Assembly (NCBI GenBank): GCA_017409825.1
Contig: JAFQRZ010000034.1
Coordinates: 1-64,000, forward strand
DNA: 64,000 nt
Direction: 5' to 3'
Origin: Agathobacter sp.
GTDB taxonomy: Bacteria > Bacillota > Clostridia > Lachnospirales > Lachnospiraceae
Each line of letters starts with the position of its first letter. Within the stretch, counting starts at the first letter, position 1. Of the stretch, positions 18,033 to 59,188 are shown piece after piece. The notes beneath the pieces are model-generated. The model was not told the origin of the DNA and made no database searches. It saw nothing but the letters and a program-made list of their open reading frames with translations. Both the position numbers and the translations under genes were made by a program.

Positions 18033-18392
18033 ATGGCATTACAAGATGATTTGCGAGCACAACTGATTAAACAGTTTGCTGCAGAAGTTATAGAATTAAC
18101 GGAACAAAGTGGAAAGAAGTTTTATGCATGCCCAACCTGTAAGAGGCCAGTGGTAAAAAGCGATGTAAAGTGTCCGGGCTGTCAGCAGGCATTGTCATGG
18201 CAGAATATCCACGTGGTAGAACAGGGAGCAAACGGACCTAGATTTGCGACATTGCGATTTGAGGTGCCGGCCGATTTTGAAAAAGGGTATTGTAGAAAAT
18301 GTCCACTTTCTTATATTGCAAAAACAAATGCAGAGAATGTATATGAGTGTCCATTGAATAATCGTGTGAATTGTCCACTAGAAATTGAATAA
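18033..18392 (+). CDS. Small Cys-rich protein, probable double zinc ribbon, unknown function
   Basis: 119 residues, soluble. Eight cysteines occur as CPTC, CPGC (spaced as a zinc ribbon, about residues 33-55), then CRKC, ECPL and NCPL in the last 35 residues, suggesting two metal sites. I do not recognise a named family. AAGGGGAAA precedes ATG 18033. It sits 44 bp after the antiporter operon and before a strong terminator, so it may be its last cistron. Metal binding or a nucleic-acid role are both open. Confidence 0.7.
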   Translation: MALQDDLRAQLIKQFAAEVIELTEQSGKKFYACPTCKRPVVKSDVKCPGCQQALSWQNIHVVEQGANGPRFATLRFEVPADFEKGYCRKCPLSYIAKTNAENVYECPLNNRVNCPLEIE

Positions 18393-53911: not shown

Positions 53912-56900
53912 GTGAAAACATTTGTAGAACCCTTGAAAAATTTGAGCGGCTTTGCGGATATGCGAAAGCACGCGCAGCAGGAAAAAGGTCTATACTCCAT
54001 TTCGGGATGTATCGACGCACAAAAATCTCATATGATGTATGCATGTAGCGATGGTAAAAAGAACAATATCATCGTTACTTTTCATGAACAAAAGGCGAAA
54101 GAACTCTACGAGGACTATCGCTTTTTTGATTCTGATGTAGTATATTTTCCGGCAAAGGATGTACTATTTTATCAATCGGATATTCGTGGAAATGTTCTAA
54201 CGGCAGAACGTATTCGTGCGCTCAAAGCGATTCACGAGCAGGAGCAGGTAACTGTAATTACTACCTTTGATGCATTGATGAATACACAGGCTCCTCCAGA
54301 AAAAATGTGGAACTGTCTGCTTACACTTATGCCAGGTGATGAAGTGAAATTGGAAGAAGTGACCCAGCAGCTGGTTCGTATGGGATATGAAAAAGAGTAT
54401 CAGGTAGAAACCATGGGGCAGTTTGCTCTGCGAGGCGGAATACTTGATATTTTTCCATTGACGGAGGAGAATCCGATTCGAATCGAGATGTGGGGCGACG
54501 AAATCGATACGATTCGAACCTTTGATACGGAAAGTCAGAAATCCATTGAAAATATAGATGAGATAAAAATATACCCAGCTTGTGAGCTGGTACTTACGGA
54601 AGAGGAAAAAAGAGCAGGCATTGAAAAGCTTTTGAAAGAGGCGAAGAAGACTTCGGATAAGCTTCGTAAAGAGATGAAGACGGAAGAAGCCCATCGAATG
54701 CTCTCTACAGCAGAGGAGAAGGCGGAAGAGTGGGGCGAACTGTCAATTTATGCAGGTATGGATGCGTATCTGTCGTATTTTTGCGAAGAACGCATTGGGC
54801 TTTTGGATTATTTTTCACCAGAAGATACCTTTCTGTTCTTTGATGAATTAAGTCGTTGCGTAGAGCGTGGAAAGCAGACAGAGCTAGAATTTTCGGAGAG
54901 TATGAAGCATCGTCTGGAGAAAGGGTATATTCTTCCAGGACAGATGAAAGAGCTCTTTTTAGAGAAGGAAATCATTGGGAAATGCAACCAGTTTTCTTGC
55001 ATTTCATTTGCAGCATTGGATGTAAAAGCGAATGGGTTAAAGCAGCAGGGGACTTTTGGCATTCACGTAAAAAGCGTAAATTCCTATAACAACAGTTTTG
55101 AGCTTTTGGTAAAGGATTTAAAAAATTATAAGAAAAATCATTATAAAATTATCTTGCTTTCTGGCTCCCGTACCAGAGCGAAGCGTCTGGCAGAGGATTT
55201 GCTGGATGAGGGATTGAATAGCTTTTATACCGAAGATTATGACCACGAACTTTTGGAAGGTCAGATTATGGTATGTTACGGCAAGGTACATCGTGGATAT
55301 GAATATCCGATTTTGCAGTTTGCAGTAATTACGGAAACGGATATCTTCGGTGGAGAGAAAAAGAAGAAAAAACGTCATAGAACCTACGAAGGAGAAAAGA
55401 TTGCGAACTTTACAGATCTGAATGTAGGGGATTATGTGGTACACGAAAACCATGGTCTAGGCGTTTATAAAGGCATTGAGAAAATTGAAGTAGATAAAAT
55501 ATTAAAGGACTACATCAAGATAGAATATGCTGGCGGGTCCAACTTGTATATTTTGGCCACCCAGCTTGAAATGATTCAAAAATACGCAGGTAAGGATGCC
55601 AAGAAACCAAAGCTCAATCGCCTAGGCGGTCAGGAATGGACGAAGACCAAGTCGCGTGTGCGTGGGGCAGTAAAAGAAATTGCAGCGGATCTGGTGAAAC
55701 TGTATGCCCTTCGTGAAGAAAAAAATGGTTTTGTATATGGGCCAGATACAGTATGGCAGAGAGAATTTGAAGAGCTCTTCCCATTCGAGGAAACACAGGA
55801 CCAGGTGCTTGCGATTGAGGATACCAAGCGAGATATGGAAAGCACCAAAATCATGGATCGCTTGATTTGTGGCGATGTGGGATATGGAAAAACCGAGGTT
55901 GCGATTCGTGCTGCATTTAAAGCGGTGCAGGAAGGAAAGCAGGTTGCATATCTTGCACCAACGACGATTTTGGCACAGCAGATTTATAATACGTTTTCCC
56001 AGCGTATGAAGGATTTCCCAGTACGCGTGGATTTGATGTGCCGATTCTGTACTGCTTCGGAAATGAAACATACCGTAGAAGGCTTGAAAAAGGGACAGGT
56101 GGATGTGGTAGTAGGAACACATCGAATTTTGTCGAAAGATGTCGAATTTAAAGATTTAGGACTCTTGGTTGTAGACGAAGAACAACGTTTTGGCGTTGCA
56201 CACAAAGAAAAAATTAAGCAGATGAAAACCAATGTAGACGTACTGACGTTGACTGCTACGCCAATTCCAAGAACACTTCACATGAGTTTGATTGGAATTC
56301 GCGATATGAGTGTGTTAGAAGAACCACCAATGGACCGACTCCCGATTCAAACCTATGTGATGGAATATAATGAGGAATTAGTACGTGAGGCAATCAATCG
56401 CGAGCTTGCGAGGGATGGCCAGGTGTTCTATGTCTATAATAAGGTAAAGGACATCGATGATATCACGACGAAGATTCAGTCGCTGGTGCCAGAGGCAAAT
56501 GTGGCTTTTGCACATGGGCAGATGAAAGAACGTGAGCTGGAGAAAATTATGTATCGTTTCATCAATGGAGAAATTGATGTGCTGGTTTCTACCACTATTA
56601 TTGAAACGGGGCTGGATATCTCTAATGTAAATACGATGATTATTCATGATGCAGATAATATGGGATTATCTCAGTTGTATCAGCTACGAGGCCGTGTAGG
56701 ACGTTCGAATCGTACGGCGTATGCATTCCTTATGTACCGTAGGAACAAAATGTTAAAAGAAGTGGCAGAAAAACGTCTGGCTGCGATGAAAGAATATTCC
56801 GAACTTGGCAGTGGATTTAAGATTGCGATGCGAGATTTGGAAATCCGTGGTGCGGGGAATCTTTTGGGCGCGGAACAGAGCGGGCACATGGAAGCCGTTG

Positions 56901-57451
56901 GATATGATTTGTATTGCAAGATGTTAAACGAAGCGGTAAAAGAGGCGAAGGGAGTCGTGGTAGAGGAGAAATTTGAAACCTCGATTGATATCAATACCAA
57001 CGCGTTTATACCACCGGCGTATGTTTCGAATGAATTGCAGAAATTAGACATCTACAAACGAATTGCAGGTATTGAAACAGAGGATGAGGCAGAAGAAATG
57101 CTAGAAGAACTCATCGACCGCTTTGGAGAACCACCAAAATCCGTACAAAATCTTTTGACTATTGCGAGACTGAAATTTTTTGCACATAGTTTGTATGTGA
57201 AGGAGGTCAGTCAAAAAAGCAATGAGCTAAAATTGGTGATGTATGAAAAAGCAAAAATCAATCCAGCCTTGATTCCGCAGGTAGTACAAACCAATGCACC
57301 ATTTCTTAAGTTTGTGGCAGATGCGAAGAATCCATATTTTGTTTATACCTTAAATGGAAATTCAAAGGAAAAAGGGAAGGATGTCGTAGAGATTTTAAAG
57401 AATCTGCTGGAAAATATGTCTGTTCTCGTGGAAAAAGCCTTTGATTCATAA
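53912..57451 (+). CDS. mfd: Transcription-repair coupling factor
   Basis: Displaces RNA polymerase stalled at DNA lesions and recruits UvrAB. 1179 residues. The order is the UvrB-like N-terminal region (LRGGILDIFPLTEENPI), the polymerase-interacting domain (GDYVVHENHGLGVYKGIEKI), the RecG-like motor with Walker A (GDVGYGKTEVAIRAAF), the DEEQ box (LLVVDEEQRFGVAHKEK), helicase motif VI (QLRGRVGRSNRTAYAF) and the TRCF tail. Start GTG 53912. The extreme 3' end (last two codons) coincides with the start of the large inverted repeat. Confidence 0.97.
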   Translation: MKTFVEPLKNLSGFADMRKHAQQEKGLYSISGCIDAQKSHMMYACSDGKKNNIIVTFHEQKAKELYEDYRFFDSDVVYFPAKDVLFYQSDIRGNVLTAERIRALKAIHEQEQVTVITTFDALMNTQAPPEKMWNCLLTLMPGDEVKLEEVTQQLVRMGYEKEYQVETMGQFALRGGILDIFPLTEENPIRIEMWGDEIDTIRTFDTESQKSIENIDEIKIYPACELVLTEEEKRAGIEKLLKEAKKTSDKLRKEMKTEEAHRMLSTAEEKAEEWGELSIYAGMDAYLSYFCEERIGLLDYFSPEDTFLFFDELSRCVERGKQTELEFSESMKHRLEKGYILPGQMKELFLEKEIIGKCNQFSCISFAALDVKANGLKQQGTFGIHVKSVNSYNNSFELLVKDLKNYKKNHYKIILLSGSRTRAKRLAEDLLDEGLNSFYTEDYDHELLEGQIMVCYGKVHRGYEYPILQFAVITETDIFGGEKKKKKRHRTYEGEKIANFTDLNVGDYVVHENHGLGVYKGIEKIEVDKILKDYIKIEYAGGSNLYILATQLEMIQKYAGKDAKKPKLNRLGGQEWTKTKSRVRGAVKEIAADLVKLYALREEKNGFVYGPDTVWQREFEELFPFEETQDQVLAIEDTKRDMESTKIMDRLICGDVGYGKTEVAIRAAFKAVQEGKQVAYLAPTTILAQQIYNTFSQRMKDFPVRVDLMCRFCTASEMKHTVEGLKKGQVDVVVGTHRILSKDVEFKDLGLLVVDEEQRFGVAHKEKIKQMKTNVDVLTLTATPIPRTLHMSLIGIRDMSVLEEPPMDRLPIQTYVMEYNEELVREAINRELARDGQVFYVYNKVKDIDDITTKIQSLVPEANVAFAHGQMKERELEKIMYRFINGEIDVLVSTTIIETGLDISNVNTMIIHDADNMGLSQLYQLRGRVGRSNRTAYAFLMYRRNKMLKEVAEKRLAAMKEYSELGSGFKIAMRDLEIRGAGNLLGAEQSGHMEAVGYDLYCKMLNEAVKEAKGVVVEEKFETSIDINTNAFIPPAYVSNELQKLDIYKRIAGIETEDEAEEMLEELIDRFGEPPKSVQNLLTIARLKFFAHSLYVKEVSQKSNELKLVMYEKAKINPALIPQVVQTNAPFLKFVADAKNPYFVYTLNGNSKEKGKDVVEILKNLLENMSVLVEKAFDS

Positions 57452-58018
57452 AGTTTGCTTGAAAAATTCCGATTTACCGACGCCTTTTCTTCATGTCTAG
57501 AAAGGTATATGCCCCTGTTTCTCGGATGCAATTTCGAGCATTTAAGGGAAACGCTAGCATTTTCTTGAAGAGCACGGCTTGCTTAACTTTTGTGTCTGGC
57601 ATCGCTTTTACGATTTGCAAGTGTATGTCCGTGTGTAGCACACACTGATATTCCTCTTTCAAGATTCTCTAATGTGGGCAGTCTTATAAAGGTGATATTA
57701 CATGAGCCATACAAAAACTCCGCACAAGAACGGTGCGTCAGACAGTTTGCATGGCTCATGACATTTTATAATCCTGCCCACATAAGAGAATCTAGGAAAG
57801 CATCATAATGGTGTGTGCTACACACGGACATACACTTGCAAATTGTAAAACATATGACAGACATAATAAATCAGAAAAGCAAGCCGTGTACTTCTTAGAA
57901 AATACAGCGTTTTTCTTAACTGAGAGAAATTGCATCCGAGAAACAGGGGCATATACATTTTGAAATATAAATATAAAGGCGTCGGCAAATCGGAATTTTT
58001 CAAGCAAACTTTATGAAT
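57444..58018. repeat. Large imperfect inverted repeat, gene-free
   Basis: The left arm (57444 to about 57730) is the reverse complement of the right arm (about 57732 to 58018), by blocks. A: 57444-57487 with 58018-57975, 43 of 44 matches. B: 57505-57535 with 57956-57926, 31 of 31. C: CACGGCTTGCTT, 57573-57584 with 57888-57877. D: 57613-57644 with 57843-57812, 32 of 32. E: 57662-57681 with 57793-57774, one mismatch. F: CATGAGCCAT, 57701-57710 with 57760-57751. The apex is CGCAC/GTGCG (57721-57737). Between blocks the arms diverge but keep similar lengths. The whole gene-free spacer is 57452-58105; beyond the repeat only a short leader and the ribosome-binding site TAGGAGG at 58095 are seen. 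Small frames inside are mirrored on both strands and not credible as genes. Confidence 0.9.
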
Positions 58019-58105
58019 TGCAAGAAAAGCCTTGCTAGATATGAGAAAAGGATTTATAATAATAAGATGATAAAAGGCGTACTATGCCTTGATTTAGGAG
58101 GAATT

Positions 58106-59188
58106 ATGAGATTGAAAAGATTGGCAGCTCTTGTTTTAGCAGGGGCACTGTGTTTAACATCATTCGTTGGATGTGGCGTAAATCCAGACGAAGCAGCAGC
58201 TACTTTAGGAGAACAGGAAGTTTCTGCTGGACTTGTAAATTTTGTTTGTAAGTATCAGAAGGCATCTATTGATGATTCGTATGCTACTTATTTTGGAAAA
58301 GATTTCTGGGATAAGGATATGTATGGCTATGGCACGACTATGGAAGACGACTTGAAAGCATCTATTATGAATGTGATGCATGAGTTATATACGGTAAAAG
58401 CACACATGTCAGATTATAAAGTAGAGCTTACTGAGGAAGAAAAAGCTGCAGTTACAAAAGCGGCTCAGGCATTTATGGCAGCAAACTCTGAAGAAGCAAT
58501 TAAAGAATTAGGCGCAAGCGAAGAAATCGTTACAGAAATGCTTACACTTTATACGATTCAGGCAAAAATGTATGATGCAATCATTGCAGATACAGACCGT
58601 GAAGTTTCTGATGAAGAAGCAAATATGCGTGGTATCACATTAGTAGAAATTGGTATTGCGGGCAAATACAATGACAAAGGTGCTTACGAAAAATATACAG
58701 AAGCAGAAGTAAAGGCAATCAAAGCAACTGCAAATAAGATTTTAACAGAATCTAGCAGTGTAGGTTTAGAAAAAGCTGCAAAGAATAATAAATATGAAGC
58801 AGTAGATACTGCTTATAACAAAAAAGATACTAGCATGGACAAAACACTTCTCGAAGCATTAAACGCATTGAAAGTTGGAGAAACTTCTAAGCTTATCGAA
58901 ACTACATCAGCTCTTTACATTGCAAGAATTGATGAAGATGTAGATAAGAAAGCGACAGAAGAAAATCGTGAAGCAATCATCGCAGAACGTGAAAGCAAAA
59001 CTTACAGTGACAAACTAAAAGCTTGGCAGAAGGATGATGGCTGGAAGGTAAATGATTCTGTAGTAGATAAGATTGATTTCCACAATCTTTTGACTCAGAA
59101 AGATCCATCCGAAAAGAACACTGAAAAAGTTGACTCAACAGAAAAGGCTGATTCTACAGAATCGGTAGAATCAACAGAAGGCAAGTAG
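58106..59188 (+). CDS. PrsA/SurA-like lipoprotein, putative foldase
   Basis: 360 residues from ATG 58106 (MRLKRLAALVLAGALCLTSF) with AGGAGG upstream; a longer frame from 58013 begins inside the inverted repeat and is rejected. The lipobox is FVGC, Cys23. The organisation (surface lipoprotein, N-terminal helical SurA_N-like part, middle region around VEIGIAGKYNDKGAYEKYTE that could be a PPIase-like domain) suggests a chaperone for exported proteins. I see no clear parvulin catalytic motif, so peptidyl-prolyl isomerase activity is uncertain. The tail is low-complexity with DSTEK/DSTES repeats. Confidence 0.7.
   Translation: MRLKRLAALVLAGALCLTSFVGCGVNPDEAAATLGEQEVSAGLVNFVCKYQKASIDDSYATYFGKDFWDKDMYGYGTTMEDDLKASIMNVMHELYTVKAHMSDYKVELTEEEKAAVTKAAQAFMAANSEEAIKELGASEEIVTEMLTLYTIQAKMYDAIIADTDREVSDEEANMRGITLVEIGIAGKYNDKGAYEKYTEAEVKAIKATANKILTESSSVGLEKAAKNNKYEAVDTAYNKKDTSMDKTLLEALNALKVGETSKLIETTSALYIARIDEDVDKKATEENREAIIAERESKTYSDKLKAWQKDDGWKVNDSVVDKIDFHNLLTQKDPSEKNTEKVDSTEKADSTESVESTEGK

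Follow-up and report, generated by a model that had tools for sequence, protein, structure and literature searches.

The 64,000-nucleotide stretch of DNA analysed here (the window) carries, between mfd and a PrsA-like gene, a single imperfect hairpin of 575 bases. It belongs to a dispersed family whose positions differ between sister species, showing that the element moves. On balance, we favour the reading that the family is a mobile DNA element that encodes no protein and whose working form is the folded single strand. If so, it would point to a way of moving DNA that has gone unrecognized so far and that escapes annotation, since the element encodes nothing. Nothing that we recognized as this hairpin family appeared in the literature, most subscription papers lying outside the search, and the family looks undescribed.

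The arms of the hairpin pair over their full length, bearing out the giant inverted repeat of the original prediction: the 691-nt stretch 57430–58120 folds at −351 kcal/mol, compared with −157.65 kcal/mol (s.d. 7.27) for 20 shuffles (z −26.6). Ungapped arm pairs cover 44 nt (98% complementary), 100 nt (76%), 82 nt (78%), 34 nt (85%) and 15 nt (93%). As had been proposed, the 5′ arm begins within the final codons of mfd, whose open reading frame ends at 57451, and the exact edges of the element are uncertain by some bases. The region also lacks a credible gene, as the earlier reading held; the ten open reading frames of at least 30 amino acids that overlap 57460–58005 lie on both strands, overlap one another and reach at most 72 amino acids. 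Perfect blocks alternating with divergent segments, another part of that reading, are present in the window copy but, judged by eye on the alignment, are peculiar to this copy rather than a feature of the family. In a scan of 56900–58400, no promoter-like site fell inside the element, both of those found lying outside at 58032–58063, and neither of two terminator-like sites fell at the element ends, one being a weak minus-strand site at the apex (57737–57721). Searched against Rfam (Rfam 15) at the curated threshold, the window stretch matched no family (best sub-threshold hit NRON, 19.7 bits versus 50, E 0.007), and neither did ten loci of the hairpin family, which gave one match at E 0.48. 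Features are collected in Table 1, with the sense strand defined as the one bearing the AACTC..TCAGACA apex. The reverse complement of some apices of the family is GCGAAGC, and the DNA mini-hairpin GCGAAGC has special stability.

Table 1 Features of the hairpin element and related sites in the window
Feature	Position	Strand	Basis or remark
Whole hairpin element, type-B (non-terminator) tips	57444..58018	+	Arm pairing, fold and repeat search; site empty in 8 of 8 relatives listed
5′ arm	57444..57715	+	Inverted pairs I1–I5
3′ arm	57746..58018	+	Inverted pairs I1–I5
Conserved core	57663..57792	+	Covariance model R1, 146.2 bits; window copy among the 19 model sequences
Unpaired loop motif GGTGATATT (family form GTTGATATT)	57691..57699	+	Sequence
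Apex motif, 5′ side, AACTC	57716..57720	+	Sequence
Apical stem CGCAC/GTGCG	57721..57737	+	Other copies alternate with GGTGC/GCACC
Apex motif, 3′ side, TCAGACA (family TCAAACA)	57738..57744	+	Sequence
Promoter-like site of the PrsA-like gene	58032..58060	+	10 of 12 consensus matches; just outside the element; the region has no excess of such sites over chance
Lone terminator-like hairpin where, at the orthologous position, the sister genome carries element L028	19893..19925	+	Sequence equals the tip of L028

A DNA search found a family match at 35 or more places in the window's own genome (G000; at least 35, best 40 of 52 candidates scored) and at 40 or more in the sister genome (G007; at least 40, best 40 of 69 scored), and at none in the other 22 same-genus genomes searched. 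Places outnumber copies, because pairs of contig ends carry the same tip and look, by eye, like halves of a single copy. Of the 13 copies tested, 12 have no counterpart at the orthologous position in a relative. None of the eight relatives listed carries an element at the window site, among them G007, whose mfd stretch is 98% identical; seven of eight chosen G007 copies face an empty site in G000, the eighth having its flanks on two contigs; and all four chosen copies of genome G055 face an empty site in G011. Many copies, absent from relatives at the same sites, agree with the dispersed foldback element offered in the original prediction. The same note held that many copies with terminal duplications would indicate an ordinary foldback element; the copies are indeed many, but no constant target duplication was seen by eye at the window and 11 empty sites, where the spacers have diverged and a duplication of 2–5 bp could be missed.

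Short, non-coding copies with inverted ends, present in large numbers and at sites that vary between relatives, are what MITEs and foldback elements look like, and the type-A end GGGCTGTCGC presumably resembles the ends of insertion sequences. An ordinary MITE, however, as the internal-deletion offspring of an insertion sequence, would be moved by a transposase acting on its ends, whereas here variation is greatest at the ends and conservation greatest at the centre, one core occurs with two unrelated types of tip, target duplication is not constant and no parent insertion sequence was found by eye among the open reading frames at 12 loci. We regard this explanation as quite unlikely. Those reading frames, again by eye, included no transposase, and a gene travelling with the element was rejected, the neighbours at the 12 loci, read from translations, being different. 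Among the seven carriers in the genus, some of which are incomplete MAGs, the Y1 (RAYT) transposase PF01797 is present in G013 and G051 and absent from the other five (G000, G007, G055, G010 and G074); the reverse transcriptase PF00078 is present in G000, G010 and G051 and absent from the other four (G007, G055, G013 and G074). Judging from these domain matches, neither appears to be a constant partner of the family, which, like the absence of a constant target duplication, counts against the mobile DNA element that we favour. REPINs and BIMEs, which are moved by RAYT, are likewise intergenic palindromic mobile hairpins. They are, however, ~100 nt long, compared with ~500–600 nt for the hairpin family in the genus, and differ further in that the stems of the hairpin family vary between copies and five of its seven carriers lack the Y1 transposase. 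A REPIN consists of two REPs with a GTAG/CGTC tag at the base. Integron attC sites also keep structure over sequence and are read as a folded single strand, but the hairpin family is much longer and probably has no link to an integrase or to gene cassettes.

Sharp conservation of the paired blocks had been taken to suggest selection on pairing, but the direction of conservation is the reverse. Across 19 distinct cores, drawn from six genomes, the majority letter averages 0.64 in the 82 paired columns and 0.91 in the 26 unpaired ones; variation is concentrated in the paired columns. Internal loops at fixed positions, which the same reading anticipated, are borne out, and the most conserved unpaired letters are those of the apex, AACTCG..CTCAAACA. 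In the core arms of these 19 sequences, in an alignment fitted to the model, both sides change at 46 of 47 pairs, and standard pairs occupy 93.6% of cells. None of 500 shuffles reached the covariation score or the pairing, four reached the number of pair types, and sliding the partners gave pairing of at most 48.3%. In an unfitted MAFFT alignment of 25 copies, both sides change at 26 of 59 pairs; a 26-base match (L009) and a duplicate of L002 (L040) were left out of the family alignments. The apical stem takes three clearly different forms among 14 aligned G055 copies, every one of them paired.

Strong covariation together with conserved unpaired letters on one strand is the usual mark of structured RNA, and the large structured bacterial RNA classes in Rfam 15 share with the hairpin family covarying stems, conserved loops and lengths of hundreds of nucleotides. 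The family could thus be a large structured non-coding RNA class carried on a mobile unit, with the fold as the selected product and with loops that bind protein or ligand. In structured RNA, G•U intermediates are favoured over A•C, and no such preference was found in the hairpin family. Isolated mismatches comprise 80 G•T and 90 A•C in 17 copies of G000 and G007, and 77 and 82, respectively, in 17 copies of five other genomes. At 221 consensus pairs in 17 copies, with L026 dropped, there are 57 G•T and 50 A•C mismatches, and the core alignment contains 16 and 15 without one conserved G•T column, or 33 and 15 with it, the latter count speaking against the DNA reading. By contrast, nine tRNAs used as a control gave 10 G•T and no A•C (Fisher p 0.005 versus the hairpin family). 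Because G•T and A•C mismatches are equally common, pairing appears to be kept at the DNA level. The Rfam classes differ further from the hairpin family, which falls below every curated score, has no G•U excess and is mobile; moreover, at co-directional sites, 11 of 17 copies share the direction of the genes and 6 have the opposite one, which also speaks against an RNA. Thus, in the long hairpin RNA of the original prediction the internal loops stand, whereas the RNA role is weakened, since there is no G•U excess and the window copy contains no promoter-like site. Template switching, to go by the available text of PMC8794818, would hide a G•U signal, and conservation of loops on one strand would suit an RNA equally well, which counts against the folded DNA strand that we favour. 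Overall, we consider the RNA reading unlikely. If pairing is indeed kept in DNA, covariation that is close to perfect, which normally serves as evidence for a functional RNA, can be produced entirely at that level, and equal numbers of G•T and A•C mismatches would be the sign of it.

Replication template switching is the simplest explanation for how the arms stay paired. As described in the available text of PMC8604942 and PMC8794818, this process homogenizes the arms of quasipalindromes and inverts their spacers. Copying of one arm into the other would account for both the paired stems and the symmetry of G•T and A•C mismatches, and interiors inverted between sisters would follow because template switching also inverts spacers. 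The element lies in opposite orientation at all five loci common to G000 and G007, four of which rest on copies cut by contig ends. At the pair that is complete in both genomes (L002/L022), two windows at the tips align better in direct orientation (1.0 and 0.97, versus 0.8 and 0.8 when flipped), whereas the interior matches better when flipped. In 18 G000/G007 copies tested directly, none of the mid or outer arm segments had changed sides with respect to the core, and the switch points there therefore lie near the tips; in one G055 copy (L352), the outer arms have done so. In the mobile-element reading that we favour, a polymerase switching template between the arms during replication would copy a mutation in one arm onto the other, giving matched changes on both sides; the stems could then drift freely while staying paired, and the interior would invert. 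The unpaired motifs, at the apex and in the loops below it, may then be marks read on the folded strand by a putative mobilizing recombinase. Quasipalindrome correction, as covered in that available text, shares arm homogenization and spacer inversion with the family but is a mutational process rather than an element, and leaves copies at new sites and the kept loops unexplained.

The common core carries two unrelated types of tip, assigned by eye: type A is terminator-like and type B is not. All 13 type-A copies for which both neighbours were read have a gene pointing towards them on at least one side (10 lie between convergent and 3 between co-directional genes), and the six type-B copies, including that of the window, lie between divergent (three) or co-directional (three) genes. 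At seven of the eight empty type-A sites there is a simple terminator whose stem sequence is different, sometimes partly similar, and at the eighth, the site of L028, there is a terminator identical in sequence to the element tip. The latter, which is the lone hairpin of Table 1, is a fitting candidate for either a deletion scar or an original target. Many copies would thus replace the simple terminator of relatives with terminator-like hairpins at both tips, leaving the gene order terminated, as the empty sites partly show, and loss of a copy by slippage between short tip repeats could leave one tip behind as a terminator. These sites would also suit passive palindromes, that is, terminator hairpins that have no dedicated means of moving and that grow and spread by ectopic conversion and template switching, and the terminator stems at one locus differ among three relatives. 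Passive growth, however, sits poorly with central letters conserved across genera and with type-B copies that lie away from terminators, half of them between divergent genes, and we judge it highly improbable. A common repeated terminator as the target was rejected, lone GGCTGTCGCAAA..GCGACAGCC hairpins being rare (two in G007, one in G040 and none in G000, G011, G055 or G066).

In G000, 28 of the 35 places found at the DNA level are no more than 100 bases away from a contig end, and these are spread over 22 of the 36 contigs. Such clustering is what fold-back chimeras of assembly would produce; nevertheless, the single-contig genome G051 bears a copy, the complete Butyrivibrio fibrisolvens plasmid pNP243 bears a hairpin of 307 nt that contains the apex motif (scoring 308, compared with at most 54 for shuffles), and empty and filled sites are clean, which makes the chance of an artefact almost negligible. 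The position of so many places near contig ends instead implies that short-read assemblies break at members of the family and that the family is under-recorded. Copy-specific tips, paired across contig ends, could help to join contigs.

The 130-base core was found by covariance model in 7 of 62 genomes of the genus, a wider model found the family in at least 12 of 397 genomes of the taxonomic family, in 11 Lachnospiraceae genera, and a class-level search found it in at least 3 of 391 genomes, the window's own genome being counted each time. The family- and class-level counts are too low because seven candidates per genome were scored in those searches. Going by these model matches, eleven Lachnospiraceae genera form the firm range. 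Two genomes from other Clostridia families have weak model scores, yet apex and stems are visible. In 24 of 27 members (L001, L117 and L266 were dropped because the exact motif was unmatched), 11.3 of 14 bases of the stem beside the motif pair with their own partner versus 6.1 with the partners of others, at the best offset for both, and all 24 reach the swapped-partner 95% point of 8; this is supportive rather than proof, because some members were picked for a visible stem, a bias in favour.

More distant candidates come from short-motif searches. For the window element itself, a phage or plasmid origin was rejected, with no match in phage or plasmid records. Short-motif BLAST returned 14 plasmid records (E 0.1–6), five of which were looked at, and 23 phage records (E up to 10), both at chance level when taken alone; the motif query had no match in E. 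coli genomes. The whole hairpin of an Ilyobacter plasmid candidate scores 82, compared with a shuffle maximum of 80, candidates on Parabacteroides and Variovorax plasmids have local stems around the motif and their best inverted repeats elsewhere, and an Enterococcus plasmid match has no hairpin around the motif. The viral motif patterns gave 7, 0, 17 and 16 stretches, the looser first pattern being unused, and IMG/VR contributed two candidate contigs: L363, retained for its local fold, with the best inverted repeat around the motif lying elsewhere, and L393, with a score of 26 versus a null maximum of 24. A third contig, L370, was set aside (score 22, null 99% point 20). These candidates from other phyla are weaker than the Lachnospiraceae members. 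It is possible, if doubtful, that they belong to a widespread, perhaps bacteria-wide, class of mobile DNA hairpins, with information in the single-stranded apex and internal loops, with stems that drift as replication copies arm from arm, and with movement as folded single strands by a putative enzyme; we place the odds low because the other-phylum cases consist of chance-level BLAST matches and local stems.

Several individual loci show further peculiarities. At a site where G055 has an element (L336; G000 C27, ~18039–18159), the stem of the G000 terminator is unusually long (~29 bp), and G011 and G040 have short, different terminators. In copy L043 (G000 C10:32587–32991), both outer flanks carry an inverted stretch of ~15 bases that includes a stem of a host terminator, CCGTATCCATTGCCG, which looks like outward growth of the palindrome. 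Two G000 copies of different subfamilies, L041 (C4) and L052 (C31), contain the identical nested small hairpin TGAAAAGGTTCGCTGGACCTTTTCA in the same place on the 3′ side of the core, and two G010 copies (L109 and L113) contain another nested insert of ~80–100 bases. Finally, the single short, very perfect hairpin of genome G376 adjoins a tandem-repeat open reading frame (L270:1652–2302) with a recurring SGYxSExLQRKLKSARF-like unit.
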